DNA from: Flavobacterium sp. Root186
GTDB taxonomy: Bacteria; Bacteroidota; Bacteroidia; Flavobacteriales; Flavobacteriaceae
Direction: 5' to 3'
Assembly (NCBI RefSeq): GCF_001428525.1
Contig: NZ_LMHW01000011.1
Coordinates: 372,001-436,000, forward strand
DNA length: 64,000 nt
Part shown: in pieces, positions 3,778-44,006 of the stretch
Layout of the letters: every line of letters starts with the position of its first letter
Numbering within the stretch: the stretch's first letter is position 1
Translations under genes and position numbers: made by a program
The notes under the pieces: generated by a model
What the model was told of the DNA's origin: nothing
Database searches by the model: none
The model's input: only the letters and a program-made list of their open reading frames with translations

Positions 3778-4260
3778 ATGAAAAATCTAGTTTTACCTTA
3801 TCTGCTTGTTATCTGCATTGGATTTCAAAGTTGTAAAAATGAAGAAAAACAAAAACAAACTGAGTCAGCAAAATCTGATGCTGAAACAGTTGTAAATACG
3901 GAGTGTTATCAGGCCGTATATGAAAAAGATACTCTTCAATTAAAGCTTAACACTTTAAAAAATGGAAAATTAAGTGGAAATATGATTATGAAAGTGGCGC
4001 CTTCAACCGTAAGAACGGGTGAAATTAAAGGTGAATTTCACGGAGATACCTTATTTGCCGATTATACTTTTAAGGATTTAGCAAGTAAAGACAAAACGTT
4101 TAAAAATCCAATGGCATTTTTAAAGAAAGACAAACAGCTTATTTTAGGAAACGGAACAATGCAAACCACAATGGGAGTTACTTATTTAGTAAAAGATAAG
4201 CCTATTGATTTTGATCAAGTAAAATATAAATTTGATGCAGCTGAATGTGCCACTAAATAA
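3778..4260 (+). CDS. Small lipoprotein of unknown function
   Basis: 160 residues. A type II signal peptide ends in the lipobox FQSC (Cys19), followed by a Lys/Glu/Gln-rich linker. The rest reads as alternating beta strands (LKLNTLKNGKLSGNM, GEIKGEFHGDTLFADYTF), as in small beta-barrel lipoproteins of the periplasm or outer membrane. Two cysteines (near residues 43 and 157) could form a disulphide. It has its own interval after the upstream terminator and is closed by a bidirectional terminator. I do not recognise a named family; NlpE-like or META-like folds are possible but unproven. Confidence 0.8.
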   Translation: MKNLVLPYLLVICIGFQSCKNEEKQKQTESAKSDAETVVNTECYQAVYEKDTLQLKLNTLKNGKLSGNMIMKVAPSTVRTGEIKGEFHGDTLFADYTFKDLASKDKTFKNPMAFLKKDKQLILGNGTMQTTMGVTYLVKDKPIDFDQVKYKFDAAECATK

Positions 4261-4295
4261 ACGTGAAAAGTCAGATGTAAGATTTTGATAAAATA

Positions 4296-4328
4296 AAAAG
4301 CCGTTTCTAAATTTAAGAAACGGCTTTT
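4296..4328. terminator. Bidirectional intrinsic terminator between convergent genes
   Basis: AAAAGCCGTTTCT at 4296-4308 pairs with AGAAACGGCTTTT at 4316-4328 across a 7-base loop. An A-run on one side and a T-run on the other let it serve both the lipoprotein gene and the convergent DUF1573 gene. Confidence 0.85.
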
Positions 4329-4355
4329 ATAATTTTTTTAGATTTTATTTTTTTG

Positions 4356-4736
4356 CTATAAAACTTCACCTTTAATTTTTAAGGCAACGCGGCCATCAGG
4401 ATAGTTTACAGCGTTGGTTTCAACCGTAATTGTTTTACGAATTGGACCGGCAGCCATGTTATATTTAACATCAATTTTTCCTTTTTTACCAGGCATTACA
4501 GCTGCTGCGGGTTTTGTAACAACTATAGAACTAACTGTCGATTCTGCACCAATAATTAAAAGCGGTGCATCGCCGGTGTTAGTAAACTCAAAGGAGCGAA
4601 CTCCATTATCAGTCTTAGAAATTTTTCCATAATCAATTGTATTGTCCGGGGCTGCAAATTCAATTTTTGGGCCATTTTGTGCATAACCTATTGCGCTAAA
4701 CAATACGACTGCAATAAAAGAGGCAACATTTTTCAT
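4356..4736 (-). CDS. DUF1573 domain protein, secreted
   Basis: 126 residues from the ATG at 4736, chosen because it gives a clean signal peptide (MKNVASFIAVVLFSAIGYAQ); a longer frame to 4787 adds an unlikely charged leader. The mature part is one immunoglobulin-like DUF1573 domain: IDYGKISKTDNGVRSFEF, then TGDAPLLI, then GKKGKIDVKYN, then PIRKTITVETNA. These short proteins are common in Bacteroidota, are exported to the periplasm or outside, and have no firmly assigned role. It is monocistronic, convergent with the upstream lipoprotein gene and divergent from valS. Confidence 0.88.
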   Translation of the reverse strand: MKNVASFIAVVLFSAIGYAQNGPKIEFAAPDNTIDYGKISKTDNGVRSFEFTNTGDAPLLIIGAESTVSSIVVTKPAAAVMPGKKGKIDVKYNMAAGPIRKTITVETNAVNYPDGRVALKIKGEVL

Positions 4737-27575: not shown

Positions 27576-29879
27576 CTAAACGCTTTCTTCCAAAATCGAA
27601 TACACCAATTCTTTCGTTGGCTTTTGATCTTTTAGTTTGGCACGGACTTCATCAAAAGTAACTTTAAAATCACAGCCCGATTTATATTCTGAGCAGCCGT
27701 AAGCGGTTTTTCCTTTAAGAATTGTTCCTTTTTTGCATTTCGGACAAGTTAAAGAATCTAATGTTTCCTGCGTTGTTTTCTTCCCTTCGGTTTTCTTCGG
27801 TTCTAATTTGAGTTTGTAATTTTCTTCAAAACGAATTAAACCTTCAACGGTTCCAGATTCGGTTTTAAAACCTTTTATATTTACAGTTGAGCCTTTTTGA
27901 ACCAATCGTAAATACTGACTTTCTGTAATTTTTTTATCTAAAAAAACATTAGGCAGTAGAAAATCGCACCCCGATTTATATTCGCTGCATCCAAAAGCCG
28001 ATTTTCCTTTTATAAGATTCCCTTTCTGACATTTCGGACACGTTTCTGCCAAAATTCCGTCGGCTTTCTTTTTCTCGGGTTTTACAACTGGTTTCTGAAT
28101 CGTTGCGGCGTGCGAAATATTAGCGTGCCTTGTTTCACTTCGAACTTCGGTGACCAAAGCTTCGACCATACGTTTCATGTTTTTTATGAAAGCAGAAGCA
28201 GTATAAGTTCCTTTTTCAATATCTTTTAACTGCTTTTCCCAAGAACCCGTAAGTTCTGCCGATTTTATTAATTCATTCTGAATCGTATCAATTAACTGAA
28301 TTCCGGTTGTTGTTGGCAAAACCTGTTTTTTATTGCGGACAATATACTGACGTTTAAAAAGCGTTTCGATAATATTAGCACGCGTTGACGGACGCCCTAT
28401 TCCGTTTTCTTTCATTAATTCACGCAAATCTTCGTCGTCAACTTGTTTTCCTGCGGTTTCCATGGCACGCAGTAAAGTTGCTTCGGTAAAATGATTGGGC
28501 GGTTTGGTTTCTTTTTGAAGGAAAGAAGGTTCATGCGGCCCTTTTTCACCCACAACAAAACTTGGTAATAAATCGGGTTCTTTTTCTTTAGCATTTGGAT
28601 CTTCAAAAACAACACGGAAACCTTTTTTCAGGATTTCTTTTCCTGTAGCTTTAAAAGTTACATCGGCTGCTTTTCCAATAACTGTGGTGTTGGCAACGAG
28701 ACAATCATCATAAAAAACCGCAATAAAACGTTTTACAATAATATCATAAACCTGCTGCTGATTGTACGGCAGATTAATTTCGATTCCTGTTGGAATAATC
28801 GCATGGTGATCGGTTACTTTTTTATCGTTGAAAACCTTTGGCGATTTTTTAATTTTCTTTCCTAAAAGAGGTTCTGTTAAATGAGCATAATGCGTCAGTT
28901 TTTGCAGAATTCCCGATACTTTTGGGTAAATATCTCCCGGAAGAAAAGTCGTATCAACTCTGGGATAGGTGATGGCTTTCTGCTCGTATAAAGTCTGTGC
29001 AATTTTAAGCGTTTCTTCTGCCGAAAATCCGAATTTTTGATTGCAATAAACCTGTAAACCTGTTAAGTCAAAAAGTTTTGGAGCGTATTCGTTCCCATTC
29101 TTTTTATCGACAGAAACAATTTCAAAATCACTTTCTTTGACTTTTTCAGCCAGAATTTCTCCGTCTTCTTTTTTCAGGAAACGGCCTTCTTCATAACTAA
29201 AAAGTGTTTCTCTGTATAAAGTCTGCAATTCCCAATAGGGTTGAGGTTTAAAATTTTCGATTTCTTTAAATCGGTCCACAACCATTGCCAATGTCGGCGT
29301 CTGCACGCGTCCAATAGACAAAACTTGTTTGTAACCGCCATGTTTTACGGTATACAAACGTGTTGCATTCATTCCGAGAAGCCAATCGCCAATCGCTCTT
29401 GAAAATCCGGCATAGAATAAATTATCATAGTTTTCAGAGGGTTTTAGGTTGTCAAAACCTTCTTTTATGGCTTCGGTGGTTAGGGATGAAATCCACAAGC
29501 GTTTTATTTCGCCTTTGTAATGCGCTTCGTTCATAACCCAGCGCTGAATTAATTCTCCTTCCTGCCCGGCATCCCCGCAGTTTATGACTAATTCGGCTTT
29601 GTCGAAAAGACTTTTGATAATTTTAAACTGTTTCTGAATTCCCGAATTCTGAACGACTTTGGTTTCGAATTTTTCGGGAAGCATTGGGAGGTTATTTAAA
29701 TCCCAGCTTTTCCAGTGCGGTTTATAATCGTTGGGTTCTTTTAAGGTACATAAATGCCCAAAAGTGTAGGTTACGGCATAACCGTTGCCTTCGTAATATC
29801 CGTCGTGTTTGGTATTGGCGCCCAAAACGGATGCGATTTCGCGTGCTACACTTGGTTTCTCAGCAATACATACCTTCAT
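27576..29879 (-). CDS. topB: DNA topoisomerase III
   Basis: 767 residues. A type IA enzyme that cuts one strand and passes another, resolving recombination and replication intermediates. TOPRIM domain at the N-terminus (AEKPSVARE with Glu7; CGDAGQEGE with Asp103 and Glu107); SIGRVQTPTLAMV at 188-200; catalytic Tyr305 in KAITYPRVDTTFLP; GIGRPSTRANIIETL further on. After the core come two Cys4 zinc-finger-like modules (~614-642 and ~711-739; CPKC then GCSEYKSGCDF), near-copies of each other. It is a single gene. The plasmid-type TopB family often has such extra fingers. Confidence 0.95.
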   Translation of the reverse strand: MKVCIAEKPSVAREIASVLGANTKHDGYYEGNGYAVTYTFGHLCTLKEPNDYKPHWKSWDLNNLPMLPEKFETKVVQNSGIQKQFKIIKSLFDKAELVINCGDAGQEGELIQRWVMNEAHYKGEIKRLWISSLTTEAIKEGFDNLKPSENYDNLFYAGFSRAIGDWLLGMNATRLYTVKHGGYKQVLSIGRVQTPTLAMVVDRFKEIENFKPQPYWELQTLYRETLFSYEEGRFLKKEDGEILAEKVKESDFEIVSVDKKNGNEYAPKLFDLTGLQVYCNQKFGFSAEETLKIAQTLYEQKAITYPRVDTTFLPGDIYPKVSGILQKLTHYAHLTEPLLGKKIKKSPKVFNDKKVTDHHAIIPTGIEINLPYNQQQVYDIIVKRFIAVFYDDCLVANTTVIGKAADVTFKATGKEILKKGFRVVFEDPNAKEKEPDLLPSFVVGEKGPHEPSFLQKETKPPNHFTEATLLRAMETAGKQVDDEDLRELMKENGIGRPSTRANIIETLFKRQYIVRNKKQVLPTTTGIQLIDTIQNELIKSAELTGSWEKQLKDIEKGTYTASAFIKNMKRMVEALVTEVRSETRHANISHAATIQKPVVKPEKKKADGILAETCPKCQKGNLIKGKSAFGCSEYKSGCDFLLPNVFLDKKITESQYLRLVQKGSTVNIKGFKTESGTVEGLIRFEENYKLKLEPKKTEGKKTTQETLDSLTCPKCKKGTILKGKTAYGCSEYKSGCDFKVTFDEVRAKLKDQKPTKELVYSILEESV

Positions 29880-30137: not shown

Positions 30138-31586
30138 TTATTGTTTGGTTCTTAATTTTAGACGCAGATTGAATTGTTTAACAATTTCTTTAACATGCTT
30201 ATCTTTGATTTGTTTTCTGTTTAACCCCTGCAGACTTTGTACATATCCGGTAAAAACATGGCTTATATAAAGAGGTGAATTAGTGTTATTATCAGATGTA
30301 TTGTGGCAAGAGAAACAATTAACAAGATTGCTTACTGAATTTCCGTGTATTGATGTTGGATTAAAACCGACCTGAACATAGGTTTCCATAGTAATATTGT
30401 AGGCTGAAACAGAACCTCTGGTTAATTTTCCAGGTGCTGAATTTGAAAGGTCATAACTCAGAGAGTCTAATAAAGCCGCTTGTGCCGGAGTATCATTATA
30501 TCCTGCCGTATTAATCCATAGTGAACCATTGTAAAAATAATTGTTCCAGATACCTGTTAGCTGTGTCTTAACGCTTTGATTAATAGTGCGAATATTATTT
30601 AAGTTCTCTGAACCATTTTGGCTGGTTTGCATAAAAAGCTGAACATTATGAGAACCTTTCATTGCTTTTTCAACAGGAACGCCATACTTGTAAACAGAAA
30701 AGACATCGGTATAAATTCCATTTCCTGAAGTTATATTAATAACTGTTGCAGTGCTGTTTTTATTAAAAAAAGGATAATCAACTGTACTTGTCACCGGCGC
30801 ATCTGTTGTTGGCGTAGCTTTTGACCAATCGTAAGCAGGTGCAAGATTTTCATGCTCAAAAGTAGCCCACACAAATTCTGGATGATTTTCTACAACTCCA
30901 ACTACGTGCATTCCCAAAAGTGCTACTTTTGTTTTTACTCCATTTATCACGCCCTGAGTAATAAAATAAGAAGAAGGATCTTTAAGAACGCTCGCATCAA
31001 TCCAGGAAGTTTTAAGTTCTAATGAGCCTACAGGAAAAGTTACACCTTTCACTTTAGTAGAATCACTTTTTGCAATTGGACCGTATTTTATCATTGTTCC
31101 GTAAAGAAGTTTGTCCATAAATATAGAATAGTAGACCGTTGTAGATTTAGGAACTCCCGATGAATAATTAGGTGTTTTTAAAATATCAGTGCTGCCACTT
31201 GCCTGAGCAGTATCCGTTAAAACAATCCCATTACTTGGATCTAATTTCTGACCTGCTGCATTCACCTGAATCAGATTAGTCATAAAGAAGGGTTTTCCGT
31301 TGACTTCATTAGTCAGCCAAAGAAATTTTTGCCATGACCATTGATGAAAGTCGCAATTTGTTACTGTTGCATTGTTGGCAAATACACTTGTTGGGCCTTC
31401 ATTAGGAGGAGGAGTCTGGCGAGTGTTGTTTACGATCGTAAACCAATTAGCAGGAGCCAAACACTCAGAAGCTGCAGCATTTTTGTTTACAGTTGTATAA
31501 TTATCTTTCTCTCCCTTTGCGTCTTTTTTACAGGCACCGAATGAGATTAGAATGATAAAAAGTAATACCATTTTTGTAGTTTTCAT
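30138..31586 (-). CDS. Cytochrome c-like lipoprotein with one haem site
   Basis: 482 residues. Lipobox GAC (Cys19), then a Lys-rich linker. A single CFSCH (CxxCH) haem-binding motif lies near residues 424-428 in NLVNCFSCHNT, late in the chain, after ~380 residues of strand-rich sequence with the patterned segment LLGMHVVGVVENHPEFVWATFEH. This layout resembles a family annotated only as cytochrome c family or hypothetical in Pseudomonadota and Bacteroidota. It is anchored outside the inner or outer membrane and may pass electrons or sense redox. It is monocistronic; no oxidase or reductase genes are adjacent, so its partner is unknown. Confidence 0.8.
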   Translation of the reverse strand: MKTTKMVLLFIILISFGACKKDAKGEKDNYTTVNKNAAASECLAPANWFTIVNNTRQTPPPNEGPTSVFANNATVTNCDFHQWSWQKFLWLTNEVNGKPFFMTNLIQVNAAGQKLDPSNGIVLTDTAQASGSTDILKTPNYSSGVPKSTTVYYSIFMDKLLYGTMIKYGPIAKSDSTKVKGVTFPVGSLELKTSWIDASVLKDPSSYFITQGVINGVKTKVALLGMHVVGVVENHPEFVWATFEHENLAPAYDWSKATPTTDAPVTSTVDYPFFNKNSTATVINITSGNGIYTDVFSVYKYGVPVEKAMKGSHNVQLFMQTSQNGSENLNNIRTINQSVKTQLTGIWNNYFYNGSLWINTAGYNDTPAQAALLDSLSYDLSNSAPGKLTRGSVSAYNITMETYVQVGFNPTSIHGNSVSNLVNCFSCHNTSDNNTNSPLYISHVFTGYVQSLQGLNRKQIKDKHVKEIVKQFNLRLKLRTKQ

Positions 31587-31770: not shown

Positions 31771-33000
31771 TTATGCACCTAAAAAGAAATTGTTTATTTC
31801 ATCTAAAAACAGAAAATATAAAAAGGTTAAAACCCATAATGAGAAGAATAAAATTGAAAGGAATATGTAAAATTGGAATGGTTCGTTTTCTGTTCGTTCT
31901 TTTCTTTTCGATTCGTTATTAGGCTGAAGCCATTCAGGAGCTGGTTGATTTCTAACAGTTGAGCTGGTTTTGGACTGTATGTTACTTAAACTATTTAGAT
32001 ATTGGGGTTTAGTATTTTCGTTTATATAATTTATAAATTCACGTTTGTTTTCATTGTGAAATAGTTTTATTTCTTCAATTTTTTTATCGGAATGTATGTA
32101 ACTTATTGCTTCTTTTATTTTCTTCGAAAATTCCGAATATTTATTTTCTACAATAGCAACTTGTTTTTTTGACTCTTCTATTTTTCTGCCATTTTCCTGA
32201 TGTAGTCTTATGTTTTGTTCAATACTCTCTTTGAGTACCCTGATATTCATTTTTTTGTTTTCTTCAAGTTCAGAAAATTCTTTTTCAAAATCATGAAGTA
32301 TAATTTGTCGCTGCTTCTTTTTTTCCTCTTTTACAATTTGTATTTCATCATCAAATCCTTTTTCATCTATTGTTTTGTAAAGGCTTTTAGCGATGGTAAA
32401 ATTGGCAATTTCTTGATGATCAGTAAAAAAGATAGTGTCAAAATTATTCAATAATTCTAATGATTTTTTCAGGTTTTGCTGCAATGAATTTTCATCAATA
32501 TGAGAATAAACAACCAGATTTGAATTTGATAACCTGAAATTAGAAGGTTCGTCAATGCTTTTAAGATGAAAGCTGAGTTTATCAAAATCTATAGGCATAT
32601 CAACGGTAAAATCATCAGAATGATTCACCATTATGGTTTTATCAACGATATTTTTGTGGACTAATATTTCATGAAATTCATTGAGTTTGGTAATTGTTAA
32701 ATTATCTTCTGCAATTTCATTGGTAAACAAGATACTTGCTCCAACAAAGGTTCCTCCTCGGTCAGAATTTTTTTCTTTTGCAAAAGAGTATTTGGAGTAC
32801 GCAATGGCGTTTAATCCGTTTACTGATTCTTTACGAATAGAGTAAAGAATGCTGTTTTCAAATAGTTTTATTGCATTGGTATTGAGGTCGAAGGTTTTAA
32901 TTGATTTTGCAACATTTTGGTTTCCTAAATAAAAAGTCTGTCTAAAACCATAAGGGTTTCCAAATGTGCCAAAAGCCAGCAGGTATATATTTTGTGTCAT
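31771..33000 (-). CDS. Tail-anchored coiled-coil protein of a GTPase operon
   Basis: 409 residues. Residues 1-~200 form a compact domain starting IYLLAFGTFGNPYGFRQTF, then SDRGGTFVGASILFTN. This resembles the N-terminal domains of GTPase-associated proteins in NTPase-driven conflict systems, but I cannot confirm that by eye. Residues ~215-300 are a Lys/Glu coiled coil, followed by a polar linker (~340-375) and one hydrophobic helix near 378-400, so the protein is anchored in the inner membrane by its C-terminus and faces the cytoplasm. It starts 4 bases after the GTPase stop, so the two are co-expressed and probably bind. No enzymatic motif is visible. Confidence 0.82.
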   Translation of the reverse strand: MTQNIYLLAFGTFGNPYGFRQTFYLGNQNVAKSIKTFDLNTNAIKLFENSILYSIRKESVNGLNAIAYSKYSFAKEKNSDRGGTFVGASILFTNEIAEDNLTITKLNEFHEILVHKNIVDKTIMVNHSDDFTVDMPIDFDKLSFHLKSIDEPSNFRLSNSNLVVYSHIDENSLQQNLKKSLELLNNFDTIFFTDHQEIANFTIAKSLYKTIDEKGFDDEIQIVKEEKKKQRQIILHDFEKEFSELEENKKMNIRVLKESIEQNIRLHQENGRKIEESKKQVAIVENKYSEFSKKIKEAISYIHSDKKIEEIKLFHNENKREFINYINENTKPQYLNSLSNIQSKTSSTVRNQPAPEWLQPNNESKRKERTENEPFQFYIFLSILFFSLWVLTFLYFLFLDEINNFFLGA

Positions 33001-33004
33001 TAGT

Positions 33005-33925
33005 TTAAAAGCTAAATTTTAATCGTTCCCAGAAAGTTCCTTCATAATCTAACGGATAGCCTACTATGCTTTCGTAAAGCCAGTTCGACAAAACTTCGGC
33101 AGGAGCTAAATTTAAAAGTGTGATTCTTTCTCCGTTACCATTATTTTCAATACTGCCAATTGTAAAATAGGTTTTATTCAATTCATAAGAATTTATTCGG
33201 GTATTGGTTCTTGGCAGCCTTTCGTTGATAAAGTTCTCCAGTTCATCTTCGTTTGAAACATCTGTTCTGCCTGATTTATCCCATTTAGAAACAACTAAAA
33301 TCACGTTTATTGATTTCAGGTTTTTCCCTTTTCTTTCAAGTTCATCCAGAAATTCGTTAATTAAAGTATCTTCCAGATGTGCATTGTCATAACTGGTAAC
33401 AATTATAAAAGTTAACGGAATATTCGCATTCAGATATGCTTCGATACTGCTGTGATAAGTACCGCCTCTGCTGATATCTTTATGATTTTCGCCCGAAGTT
33501 TCCAGAAAAGTCAGGTTTATAGGCGGAACTTTTTTAGACTTATTGTTAGGTTCAAAGATTAAATCCAGTCTCGTAACCTGATCTCGAGTAGTTCTATTGG
33601 GTAGAATGCCTTGTCGTATGTTTTCAAAAAAATCAGCCAGTAAAACCTGAGCTTCTTTTGTATTGGGAGTACCCAGTTTTGGACGTAAAACGCCGGCTTG
33701 CGAACTTAAATAATATAAAATCGAAGAAAGAATAACCGACTTGCCCGATTCTCCTACACCAAAAAAGAAAATAAAATTACTTTCCTTATTTTTAATTTGA
33801 TTGGTACTGGCATTTGCCAAAGGAACAAAATCTGGTCTTGCATTATTTTGAGCATCATACGAAATAGGTTTTAATGTTTCATTGCTCAGGGTTAAAGGCT
33901 TTAAAGTGTTGTTATCTTCAGTCAT
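33005..33925 (-). CDS. P-loop GTPase of a three-gene membrane operon
   Basis: 306 residues from ATG 33925; a TTG at 33943 would overlap the upstream gene and is less likely. The first ~45 residues are low-complexity. The G-domain then shows Walker A GVGESGKS (56-63), a Walker B/G3-like strand ending LETSGEN (141-147) in place of DxxGE, and G4-like SKWD (213-216) in place of NKxD, followed by a G5-like GSIENN. The order and spacing fit TRAFAC-class GTPases of the double-GTPase or Era-like kind, with altered G3 and G4 residues. It lies between a membrane protein and a tail-anchored partner with gaps of about 4 bases. Confidence 0.85.
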   Translation of the reverse strand: MTEDNNTLKPLTLSNETLKPISYDAQNNARPDFVPLANASTNQIKNKESNFIFFFGVGESGKSVILSSILYYLSSQAGVLRPKLGTPNTKEAQVLLADFFENIRQGILPNRTTRDQVTRLDLIFEPNNKSKKVPPINLTFLETSGENHKDISRGGTYHSSIEAYLNANIPLTFIIVTSYDNAHLEDTLINEFLDELERKGKNLKSINVILVVSKWDKSGRTDVSNEDELENFINERLPRTNTRINSYELNKTYFTIGSIENNGNGERITLLNLAPAEVLSNWLYESIVGYPLDYEGTFWERLKFSF

Positions 33926-33929
33926 CTTT

Positions 33930-34961
33930 TTAGTTTTTAGCAATTAATACTTTCCCGTTTCTTTTACTGCCACTGAATATGCTGGAGCTATTACTGCTGT
34001 TTCCGCTGCCGGGAGTGGCTAGTAATACAATGATCACAATAACAAAGTCTAATAGGATACAACCCATTAATACAACAAACTGGTACATTCCAAAATTTTT
34101 GACGGCATGTTCAAAGGCAAAACCAATTTTTCCTACATCCTGTGTTTTGGAGATTTCAGGAGTAAATTTAAATTTATCGTCACCTAAAACGGAATGGGCA
34201 CGATTTCCAAGTTTATTGTATTCCGATAAAGAATCATCGATTAATCCCTGAGATAGGTCATCTTTTTCTTTTTTAGAAAGCAGTAATAAGTCCTGAATCT
34301 TTTTGTTCCATTTTAATACCGCATTGTTTATATCTGTTTTTAAAGCTTTTTCTTCTGGCGAAAGGTCAGAAATCATATTGTCAATCTGCAATCCCATTCT
34401 TTCTGCCAGATCATCATAATCATTAGCAACCGGAGTCAGGAAATCAACTTTTTGCCCGGTTAATTTTTCGATATCACGTATTAAAGACTGGGCTCTTGTG
34501 CCTATTCCTTTATTTCCGGGATCTTTGATCTGCTCCATCATCTGCTTCTTTTTAATTTCGATATCCTGAGCCGTTTCTTTGTTGTATTTGTAACTTAGTT
34601 TGGACTGAACATCAGCTTCCAGATTATTAAAACGTTCGTTTATATCCCTTAATTCGGTAGTATAAATGTCGGTTTTCATAAATCTGGTGTATAAGGCATT
34701 AAAGTTGGCTATGAAGCAAAAGGAGGCAATAAAAAGATAGATTCCCACCAAATTTGAAGTGGAACGGCCTTCTACTTTTGCAGTTCTGATCATCCAGATT
34801 AAAAACAATAATAAGAAAGATAAAACTAAGGCGATTATAAAAGAAGCCGGCCCAAAAATCTGATCTAATCCCAGCCAGGTCTGATAAAAACTTACACTAA
34901 TTAATAAAATAGCCAGTATAGCCAAAAAAATGTCGGTTACTTGAATTGATTTTCTGCTCAT
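33930..34961 (-). CDS. Four-helix membrane protein with large external domain, head of the GTPase operon
   Basis: 343 residues. Three hydrophobic helices near 10-30, 36-58 and 70-92 are followed by ~200 polar, mostly helical residues, then a fourth helix near 292-318 and a short Ser/Asn/Lys tail. With the N-terminus inside, the helical middle domain would be periplasmic and the tail cytoplasmic, the shape of a sensor. It is the first gene of an operon with the P-loop GTPase (stop and next ATG 4 bases apart) and the tail-anchored protein. I do not recognise a family. Confidence 0.82.
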   Translation of the reverse strand: MSRKSIQVTDIFLAILAILLISVSFYQTWLGLDQIFGPASFIIALVLSFLLLFLIWMIRTAKVEGRSTSNLVGIYLFIASFCFIANFNALYTRFMKTDIYTTELRDINERFNNLEADVQSKLSYKYNKETAQDIEIKKKQMMEQIKDPGNKGIGTRAQSLIRDIEKLTGQKVDFLTPVANDYDDLAERMGLQIDNMISDLSPEEKALKTDINNAVLKWNKKIQDLLLLSKKEKDDLSQGLIDDSLSEYNKLGNRAHSVLGDDKFKFTPEISKTQDVGKIGFAFEHAVKNFGMYQFVVLMGCILLDFVIVIIVLLATPGSGNSSNSSSIFSGSKRNGKVLIAKN

Positions 34962-35056: not shown

Positions 35057-35064
35057 CAAAACTA
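35057..35064 (-). promoter_or_regulatory. Bacteroidota -7 element of the GTPase operon
   Basis: TAGTTTTG on the minus strand matches TAnnTTTG, 95 bases before the first start codon. The palindrome at 35084-35102 occupies the place where a -33 box would lie. Confidence 0.5.
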
Positions 35065-35083: not shown

Positions 35084-35132
35084 TTTTACGGAAATCCGTA
35101 AAGGAGAAAAATAATTACGGATTTCCGTTTTT
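35084..35132. promoter_or_regulatory. Two ACGGAAATCCGT palindromes, candidate operator
   Basis: TTTTACGGAAATCCGTAAA at 35084-35102 is an almost perfect palindrome. A second, TTACGGATTTCCGTT, lies at 35115-35129. A third copy of the motif is at 42781-42799, also between divergent genes. Such shared palindromes suggest a dimeric regulator. Confidence 0.5.
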
Positions 35133-42929: not shown

Positions 42930-44006
42930 ATGTTAGATAGACTTCAATATGTAAAGCAGCGTTTTGATGAGATTTCGGATTTGATTATTCAGCCGGATGT
43001 TATTGCTGATCAAAAACGTTATGTGCAGCTTAACCAGGAATATAAAAGCATAAAAGCACTGGTTGAAAAGAGAGAAGAATACATTCTTGTTTTAGCAAAT
43101 ATTGACGAAGCAAACGAAATTATTGCTGACGGAAGCGATGCTGATATGACCGAAATGGCCAAAATGCAGCTTGACGAAGCAAAAGAACGCTTGCCGCAGC
43201 TAGAGGAGGAAATCAAATTTATGTTGATTCCTAAAGATCCTGAAGATGCTAAAAATGTTATGGTTGAGATTCGCGCCGGAACGGGTGGGGACGAAGCTAG
43301 TATTTTTGCAGGGGATTTATTTAGAATGTATACTAAATATTGTGAAGGCATGGGCTGGAGAACTTCGGTTGTAGATATGAACGAAGGAACTTCCGGAGGT
43401 TTCAAAGAGGTTATTTTTGAGGTTTCGGGAGAGGATGTTTACGGTACTTTGAAGTTTGAAGCAGGTGTTCACCGTGTACAGCGTGTTCCGCAGACAGAAA
43501 CGCAAGGTCGTGTGCATACATCGGCAGCAACTGTTATGGTTTTACCGGAAGCAGAAGAGTTTGATGTTCAAATCGATATGAACGATGTTCGTGTAGATTT
43601 CTTCTGTTCGTCTGGACCTGGAGGACAATCTGTAAATACAACGAAATCGGCTGTACGTTTAACGCACATTCCAACCGGATTAGTAGCGCAATGTCAGGAT
43701 CAGAAATCGCAGCATAAAAATAAAGATAAAGCGTTAACGGTTTTACGTTCTCGTTTATATGAAATGGAATTGGCTAAGAAAGAAGCTGAAGATGCTACAA
43801 AACGTACTTCTCAGGTTAGTTCTGGTGACCGTTCGGCTAAGATTCGTACCTACAACTATGCGCAAGGCCGTGTAACTGATCACAGAGTTGGTTTAACACT
43901 TTACGATTTAGGAAACATCATGAATGGTGATATCCAAAAAATTGTTGCCGAGTTACAATTGGTTAACAATATGGAGAAATTGAAGGAAGCTTCAGAAGTT
44001 TACTAA
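42930..44006 (+). CDS. prfA: Peptide chain release factor 1
   Basis: 358 residues, normal RF1 length. It ends translation at UAA and UAG on the ribosome. The GGQ catalytic tripeptide is at 231-233 in [16 protein letters not shown], and the RF1-type stop recognition motif P-x-T appears as PQT (187-189) in [15 protein letters not shown]. Domains: helical N-terminal part, PCRF domain, and the GGQ domain with the basic tail [13 protein letters not shown]. Own promoter and strong terminator. Confidence 0.98.

Follow-up and report, generated by a model that had tools for sequence, protein, structure and literature searches.

A three-gene operon of Bacteroidota encoding a putative sensor, a divergent DO-GTPase and a predicted longin-like partner

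The window, a stretch of 64,000 nucleotides (nt) from Flavobacterium sp. Root186 that corresponds to positions 372001-436000 of contig C11 of its genome, carries an operon of three genes on its minus strand, which we call MEM, GTP and TAIL. MEM (33930..34961) encodes a putative sensor, a membrane protein of 343 amino acids (aa) with four transmembrane (TM) segments; GTP (33005..33925) encodes 306 aa counted from an ATG and is, by profile comparison, a divergent DO-GTPase; TAIL (31771..33000) encodes 409 aa with a predicted longin-like N-terminal domain, a coiled coil and a C-terminal TM segment. The recurrence of the three genes together exceeds chance. We read the operon, tentatively and with a confidence that stops somewhat short of the probable, as an envelope switch made of a sensor, a GTPase and a GTPase-activating protein (GAP), a reduced variant of the DO-GTPase kind. 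The large external domain of MEM would sense some periplasmic cue, and GTP would be a cytoplasmic DO-type switch at the inner membrane. The output, where encoded, would lie in exported hydrolases specified downstream (a retropepsin-like protease and a staphylococcal-type nuclease, SNase). In the window and at many other loci, the response regulator of a TPR-histidine-kinase system may bind a promoter-adjacent palindrome and turn on expression.

Gene linkage, the GTPase and the membrane protein

The first-pass annotation of this DNA had called an operon of three close genes, and all three open reading frames (ORFs) were found on the minus strand, with four intervening bases at both the MEM-GTP and the GTP-TAIL junctions; the mechanical ORF list starts GTP at a TTG 18 nt before the ATG used here. 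The same annotation had proposed a neighbourhood survey. Sixty loci were collected by scanning GTDB species genomes for GTP, and were thus found through GTP itself; the three genes recur together across these Bacteroidota, all present and in constant order at 59 of the 60. The remaining locus, L020, lies on a contig that begins 101 bases before GTP, and contig ends interrupt MEM of L014 and TAIL of L048. In the Niabella loci L058 and L063 the GTP and TAIL frames are split (in L063 also that of MEM) and a downstream SNase gene is retained; these are decayed copies or sequencing errors. As a second check, profiles were run over 395 Bacteroidota genomes, including that of the window, and matched GTP in nine, MEM in eight and the N-terminal part of TAIL (TAIL-N) in nine, with all three genes side by side by coordinates in the same eight genomes. 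At the ninth GTP match (L091), MEM-like and TAIL-like ORFs adjoin by inspection, and the ninth TAIL-N match (G093) is an alignment of 56 residues with an expectation value (E) of 8.9e-4.

A search of 60 genomes of relatives, the window's own included, found GTP in three, so the distribution is patchy. In a GTPase tree of 57 rows the window falls among Flavobacterium rows, with 99% identity to Flavobacterium sp. CF108. The label Weeksellaceae requires six changes on this tree, at least four of them forced by well-supported branches; among the labels, which were assigned from record titles, L060 (Cellulophaga) was wrongly counted in the Cytophaga group. The disagreement with taxonomy is consistent with horizontal transfer, and it is the GTPase tree only that suggests such a spread. 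On the Cellulophaga contig of L060 the GTP gene is near-identical to those of Flectobacillus L045 and L047, which reflects either recent transfer or contamination.

The P-loop GVGESGKS (residues 56-63), LETSGEN at G3 (141-147) and SKWD at G4 (213-216), all noted in the first-pass annotation, are present in GTP. Among 59 aligned GTPases, SGK[S/T] is retained in 58 and SKWD in every one; the first G3 residue is Glu rather than Asp in all 59, and Glu follows the G3 glycine in 57. All 17 GTP members scanned match Pfam DO-GTPase1 at E<=1 (best 5.5e-8) and eight match DO-GTPase2. The window's GTP alone scores 20.6 bits against DO-GTPase1, under the Pfam cut-off of 27, and a search of the window's own genome for the DO-GTPase families at E<=0.01 gave no match. 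In profile-to-profile comparison (hhalign), GTP aligns with DO-GTPase1 at E 6.6e-11 over 187 columns and with DO-GTPase2 at E 2.2e-8 over 166 columns. Our set of canonical systems comprised two from Bacteroidota genomes and 12 from plasmids; D92, G95 and E96 are invariant in all 14 DO-GTPase1 rows, and DISGE at G3 and SKWD or SCWD at G4 occur among the canonical proteins. The odd G3 and G4 motifs of GTP are thus near family traits of DO-GTPases. A member of the family should have a conserved Glu (SGE) at Walker B/G3; in our reading the Glu after the G3 glycine of GTP is the residue meant in the description of the family (PMC7159879). From its motifs and profiles GTP is classed as a divergent DO-GTPase; against solved structures it gave no sequence match at E<=1.

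The first-pass annotation had described MEM as a four-helix membrane protein with an external domain of about 200 residues, and hydropathy bears this out, with four TM segments (residues ~8-26, 40-58, 67-85 and 296-314; a weaker hydrophobic segment, 30-48, overlaps the second) and about 197 residues between the third and the fourth. The N-terminus, the loop between segments 2 and 3 and the C-terminus carry net positive charge and the 197 residues are slightly acidic; owing to this charge distribution, residues ~96-292 are predicted to be periplasmic, with both ends inside. Mean column identity is 64% over 22 members, 13 of which match Pfam DUF4199 weakly (best 3.4e-5). GASH is absent among the matches listed for the 22 members (25 of 47 families), and the window's MEM likewise has no GASH match.

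The predicted fold of TAIL and its invariant arginine

TAIL can be divided into a longin-like domain (residues ~1-147), a small alpha/beta extension (161-212), a coiled coil (213-303) and a TM segment (379-397). AlphaFold2 models were made of the full length (predicted local distance difference test, pLDDT, 85.5; predicted template-modelling score, pTM, 0.65) and of residues 1-220 with 40 sequences (pLDDT 93.1, pTM 0.91). In the latter, strands 5-12 and 19-25 are followed by a short helix, strands 51-60, 63-73 and 85-93, helix 99-117, helix 139-143 and then a b-a-b-a-b stretch. The predicted order of strands (b) and helices (a), b-b-a-b-b-b-a, set against the longin criterion b-b-a-b-b-b-a-a, is in the model that of a longin and not that of the permuted Roadblock, the latter being a circular permutation of the longin fold (PMC3521125).

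Foldseek candidates were re-ranked with VIA-align, their chains being named from entry titles and ranges only. For TAIL 1-220, six longin-GAP entries (Z 6.8 for Lst4, 5.9 and 5.8 for FLCN/FNIP, 5.8 for GATOR1-KICSTOR, 5.3 for the SEAC wing and 4.8 for SEA) and three TagF entries (Z 5.8, 5.2 and 4.8) make up the nine best rows; the tenth has Z 4.0, and the rows from there on are headed by LOV/PAS-type entries. With the full model, rows of longin complexes range from Z 7.3 to 5.1, and further rows match the coiled coil. Longin-GAP and TagF entries are the best structural matches that the modelled TAIL-N has, all of them middling ones.

Within this domain Arg81 (codon 32758..32760, minus strand) is a candidate arginine finger. 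Its place in the model is the loop from strand 4 (63-73) to strand 5 (85-93), and it is the sole invariant arginine, conserved in 62 of 62 TAIL rows, of which 61 are different as aligned and many come from related Chryseobacterium; the invariant columns are F13, G14, D38, Y71, R81, G83 and G87. DENN GAPs have been proposed to be marked by an arginine finger that sits between strands 4 and 5 in their longin subdomain (PMC12803157, a preprint), Arg78 of NPRL2 is placed on a loop of its longin domain (PMC8534245) and Arg147 of SMCR8 is described as pointing at the phosphate mimic (PMC8213707). In the VIA-align row for 9v0j_A, which pairs model residues 3-146 with chain residues 6-143, R81 falls by interpolation at about chain residue 80; the chain is probably NPRL2. 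A comparable motif occurs in GAP1-N1 domains, where R74-x-G76-x-V78 is invariant in 14 of 14, at a place similar to that of R81-x-G83-x-F85 in TAIL.

TAIL looks on its model more like a regulator, a GAP candidate of the longin type, than like the responding effector that it was first taken for; where candidate outputs are encoded, they are the predicted exported hydrolases specified downstream. The suggestion that residues 1-200 might be a GAP1-N domain found no sequence-profile match, the short R-x-G motif in a comparable position notwithstanding. GAP1 families are absent among the matches listed for 35 TAIL members (25 of 100 families) and for a typed consensus; the GAP1-N, -M and -C domains expected of the partner in the DO-GTPase/GAP1-N1 system are thus not seen among these matches. 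GAP1-N1 itself occurs in two of 198 sampled Bacteroidota genomes; GAP1-N2 (PF20013) occurs in none of 198, the window's included, at E<=0.001, and the window's TAIL does not match it at E<=1. Family scans and two profile comparisons thus gave no significant support for membership in GAP1-N, leaving a suggestion at the level of the motif only. The fullest form of our reading would make TAIL a bacterial longin-fold GAP that acts with Arg81 as its finger on a DO-GTPase, with GAP1 proteins as distant kin. It would link a sensor of the periplasm to the exported hydrolases that some hosts encode, and a two-component system would induce it; we regard so specific a proposal as possible but doubtful.

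Several points weigh against our reading as a whole. Contact among MEM, GTP and TAIL is putative, as is the binding of guanosine triphosphate by GTP. With Foldseek, the best E for TAIL 1-220 is 0.018, with none below 0.001 and with TagF and then a PAS domain as top rows; for full TAIL a PAS domain comes first and FLCN-FNIP2 after it, again with none below E 0.001. Every Z stays below 8, and by the tool's own caution such values arise commonly without kinship; as a yardstick, DALI Z values of 4.5-5.2 between longin and Roadblock, together with visual comparison, were taken as kinship in PMC3521125. Searched by sequence against solved structures at E<=10, TAIL-N shows no similarity. The hhalign comparison of TAIL with 14 GAP1-N1 domains pairs the R-x-G motifs at a probability of 0.1 and E 0.63, and with three remote TAIL rows added (E 0.54) that pairing is not reproduced. 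Lastly, those longin GAPs that are multimers work with a pair of longin subunits (PMC12803157, PMC8213707) and one is encoded here; the DENN GAP Avl9 is, however, reported to be monomeric.

The same results feed an alternative in which TAIL-N would be a PAS/profilin-like scaffold or ligand-binding domain and Arg81 would have a structural or ligand-binding role, with no GAP involved. PAS/LOV entries lead the rows just under the longin and TagF rows for TAIL 1-220, for the full model a LOV histidine kinase (Z 5.5) ranks higher than two longin rows, PAS is first or second in Foldseek and the longin fold is itself PAS-like (PMC3521125); furthermore, six residues besides Arg81 are just as invariant. 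Nevertheless, longin-GAP and TagF entries stand above all PAS/LOV entries in the TAIL 1-220 ranking, the TAIL gene adjoins the GTPase gene wherever both are found and the invariant Arg81 occupies the loop that longin GAPs use. A PAS/profilin-like TAIL-N is in our estimate conceivable, if open to serious doubt. For the proposed GAP, the operon is a compact example, with one each of a GTPase, a partner and a membrane protein. As the fold of the partner is modelled with confidence and only one of its arginines is invariant, a single mutation would put the idea to the test.

The description of TAIL as a tail-anchored coiled-coil protein holds for the window, where the TM segment ends close to the C-terminus; at 30 of 57 classified loci (33 after three were moved by eye) a periplasmic part follows the TM segment, mostly of 116-143 residues but in single cases of 61 and 169. 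In the remote homologue L090, TAIL terminates in the coiled coil with no evident TM segment by inspection. In L092 (1355-3103) TAIL has 582 aa and its periplasmic C-terminal region is of another kind; upstream of the operon lies an RHS-like gene of 1241 aa (both by eye).

Downstream hydrolases and the operator palindrome

Downstream hydrolase genes occur at 20 of the 60 loci, a retropepsin-like protease at 13 (the 12 of cluster 1 and L056, detected by tblastn, which also has a weak 35% SNase match) and an SNase at 11. The four proteases scanned match Pfam gag-asp_proteas (E 1.2e-14, 3e-14, 2.7e-13 and 4.2e-14) and the two SNases scanned match Pfam SNase (E 4.6e-23 and 8.5e-28); D-T-G-A is retained in all 12 cluster-1 proteases and R-x4-D-C-P-E in all 11 SNases. 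A Cys stands near the N-terminus after a hydrophobic stretch in the 12 proteases and in four of the 11 SNases, with x-H-P-E next in 15 of these 16 (partly by eye), and because of these N-termini the products are predicted to be exported and of lipoprotein type. At the 11 loci listed, the start of the protease gene falls within -16 to +11 nt of the end of TAIL. The last gene of the remote L091 operon is also a retropepsin-like protease gene; in this most remote operon a gene for a DUF805 membrane protein (3987-4661) lies between it and TAIL.

Presence of the hydrolase genes goes with the length of TAIL. Calling a TAIL long if at least 60 residues follow the TM segment, they occur at 17 of 30 long and none of 27 short classified loci (p 9e-7), or at 18 of 33 and none of 24 (p 4.6e-6) after L045, L047 and L060, whose TM segment the hydropathy cut had missed, were moved to the long class by eye and L056 was added, both p values ignoring the relatedness of the loci. 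Excluded from this test were L001-L003, L048, L058 and L063, the last two for their split TAIL though they bear an SNase gene. The window's own copy is short-tailed and has neither a protease nor an SNase gene, which also counts against our reading; the hydrolases would be outputs only in those hosts that encode them.

Upstream of MEM, the palindrome TACGG-N4-CCGTA (35087..35100, minus strand) is a candidate operator, a relaxed form of which precedes MEM at 39 of 59 loci. The box TAGTTTTG (35057..35064, minus strand) starts 36 nt after the palindrome start and is of the type TAnnTTTG, which we take to be the Bacteroidota -7 promoter consensus. A second palindrome, ACGGAAATCCGTAA (35115..35128, minus strand), lies further upstream, and L004 also has a second copy; across 35087-35128 on the minus strand the window thus has the two palindromes ACGGAAATCCGT and ACGGATTTCCGT, the proximal one keeping a constant distance of 36 nt to the -7 box in different genera. 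A loose form of the pattern was found in 41 of 60 regions upstream of MEM; among 2000 random pieces drawn from the initial 5.5 kb of the loci, 3.8% have it. At 38 of the 39 palindrome loci a TAnnTT-type box stands at offset 36, the only position in the range 14 to 69 where one occurs; for the 39th, L043, the excerpt ended before the box, which a separate listing marks there. At L013 the palindrome was missed since the start was called too far upstream, and the box is marked there too. Given the spacing of 36 nt, the palindrome would lie around position -41 of a promoter of the Bacteroidota type, where class II activators bind.

The response regulators of TPR histidine kinases are the presumed ligands of this palindrome. 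In Pedobacter L035 the genes of a TPR histidine kinase and a response regulator precede the operon, with palindrome and box before both the regulator gene and MEM, and Niabella L063 has them before MEM and before a regulator gene. In Pedobacter L046 the palindrome stands before the regulator gene and an HSDR_N gene and not directly before MEM; the HSDR_N gene is followed by a bacterial-PH gene on the same strand and the operon. The window's genome has two full-length homologues of the response regulator (35% and 38%), with the operator, accompanied by its box, starting 100 and 87 nt before their start codons and in one case of the relaxed form. The two regulator genes lie at C10:797655-798320 and C10:541312-541971. 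Next to the first is an HSDR_N gene with the operator 69 nt before its start, and at C10:796000-800500 (L116 2-4022) TPR kinase, regulator, HSDR_N- and PH-type genes are clustered, the kinase and PH identities resting on likeness to L046. The second homologue (C10:540000-544500, L117 198-1972), with its operator, adjoins a gene for a secreted endonuclease/phosphatase-like protein (by eye). An operator shared with two response-regulator genes suggests two-component control in the window's genome, and these regulators may be what binds it, in which case they and the operator provide a route to the inducing signal.

The pattern of palindrome and spaced box occurs 48 times in the 1.89 Mb of the 60 loci, both strands counted, and the exact 15-mer of the window's palindrome once in its genome; the scan for promoters and terminators showed no excess over shuffles. 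The gene at 42930 in the window is also preceded by a palindrome, which lacks a box 36 nt on and is left out of the count, and XRE-type regulators near eight loci were passed over because the operator evidence favours the response regulator. The control proposed here has its own difficulty: the palindrome is absent before MEM at 20 of 59 loci (at L013 only through the miscalled start). Of the 19 loci that bear hydrolase genes and whose upstream DNA could be read, 11 are among these (L031, L032, L033, L040, L042, L046, L052, L054, L055, L056 and L058), and the palindrome coincides with hydrolase genes at only eight (L034, L036-L039, L041, L053 and L063).

These data also bear on the possibility of an envelope-stress or homeostasis module within a two-component regulon, which would adjust periplasmic proteolysis and DNA clearance while the GTPase cycle gates membrane traffic or repair. 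Such a role would fit the operator common to the response-regulator genes, the TPR kinase and regulator that adjoin the operon in Pedobacter L035 and L046 and are paired elsewhere in the window's genome, and the predicted lipoprotein type of the hydrolases. The distribution is, however, too patchy for a general stress system, the HSDR_N-type gene of the regulon could hint at nucleic-acid defence and the 11 hydrolase-bearing loci named above lack the palindrome before MEM; we consider this role rather unlikely.

Two groups of neighbouring genes were not retained as members of the system. Downstream of TAIL in the window, a gene at 30138-31586 encodes a lipoprotein-like protein of 482 aa with the motif C-F-S-C-H-N (CxxCH) and no Pfam match at E<=1. 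It was dropped, as it is not seen in that place in L004, where GTP is 99% identical and TAIL is followed by a gene of 767 aa, equal in length to that at 27576-29879 in the window, which we take to be a topoisomerase gene. A gene of ~1231 aa upstream of the operon at nine loci (cluster 3) was set aside as chromosomal context.

A defence role and comparison with known systems

The first-pass annotation had inferred a signalling or defence module. The linkage, the kinship with DO-GTPases and a topology suited to external sensing uphold the signalling part; defence is unproven. As an anti-phage or anti-competitor conflict system, the operon would be a stripped-down relative of DO-GTPase/GAP1 systems in which MEM senses attack on the envelope and exported hydrolases or membrane parts are the effectors. 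The GTPase family comes from proposed conflict systems (PMC7159879), the distribution is patchy (3/60 relatives and 9/395 genomes, own included), the GTPase tree is at odds with taxonomy, the downstream hydrolases vary and an HSDR_N gene belongs to the presumed regulon. GTP, on the other hand, had no match in phage or plasmid collections, and of 11 viral-contig stretches that fit a GTP pattern none was confirmed; PADLOC (2023) gave GTP a weak P-loop match to mad8 (E 3.6e-5) and none at E<=1 for TAIL and MEM. The proposed linkage to known defence genes was followed in 94 neighbour proteins (16 from the window and 78 out of 117 listed at 24 loci; those omitted include the longest ones and the hydrolases): PADLOC matches at E<=1e-5 are scattered over 30 families, 16 of the 25 listed in a single protein each, and as the scan had no control we make no claim of a defence island. 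Exported effectors, moreover, would fail to reach cytoplasmic phage. A conflict system is unlikely, and a defence role is possible but unsupported.

An envelope switch of sensor, GTPase and GAP, as we prefer to read the operon, invites comparison with four known systems. No description of the three-gene arrangement turned up in a literature search, nor did any title or abstract joining longin domains with DO-GTPase-type bacterial systems, subscription papers being largely outside its reach.

DO-GTPases were described by comparative genomics, with a partner proposed to contact the GTPase and pass on sensing (Kaur et al. 2020, PMC7159879); the main text of that paper does not contain the words 'GTPase-activating', 'longin' or 'retropepsin'. 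Like the DO-GTPase/GAP1-N1 systems described there, the operon has the gene of a DO-family GTPase followed by that of a presumed partner, and membrane association in many systems and variable accompanying genes are common to both (PMC7159879); the R-x-G-x-V of GAP1-N1 is likewise matched in place by the motif around R81. In contrast to GAP1-N1 systems, with two GTPase genes, one is present per operon listed here, GAP1 and GASH matches are lacking and by inspection there is no N-terminal zinc ribbon, whereas there are a dedicated four-TM partner and, at some loci, a predicted exported protease or nuclease.

TagF, of type VI secretion (PDB 9t0n, 6iz8), resembles TAIL in structure, residues 3-215 aligning with 9t0n at Z 5.8 over 175 aligned positions with a root-mean-square deviation of 4.5, although no sequence similarity to it was found. 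Entry 2qnu, titled PA0076, is presumably also TagF, and we know of no GTPase partner of TagF. MglA, as we understand it, belongs to a GTPase family different from that of GTP. Its pairing with the Roadblock GAP MglB is nonetheless similar in that a bacterial GTPase is accompanied by a partner of longin/Roadblock-related fold (PMC8336837, PMC3521125), with the difference that TAIL has the predicted longin order and MglB the permuted Roadblock one (PMC3521125).

TAIL may resemble the GAPs of the eukaryotic nutrient-sensing pathway. The longin GAPs compared here are FLCN/FNIP, NPRL2/NPRL3, C9orf72/SMCR8 and Avl9, with which TAIL shares a predicted longin order and a conserved arginine between strands 4 and 5 (PMC8213707, PMC8534245, PMC9646525, PMC8336837, PMC12803157), and to which the adjacency of its gene to that of a GTPase adds a further likeness. 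TAIL differs from them in being bacterial, without sequence similarity, a single longin-like subunit fused to a coiled coil and a TM segment, and a GAP only putatively. The origin of longin GAPs has been sought in MglB-like proteins (PMC3521125). If TAIL-type partners are GAPs, bacterial signalling GTPases would be linked to the longin GAPs, and bacteria would possess a counterpart, with its strands in the true longin order, to the GAP logic of FLCN, NPRL2 and SMCR8.

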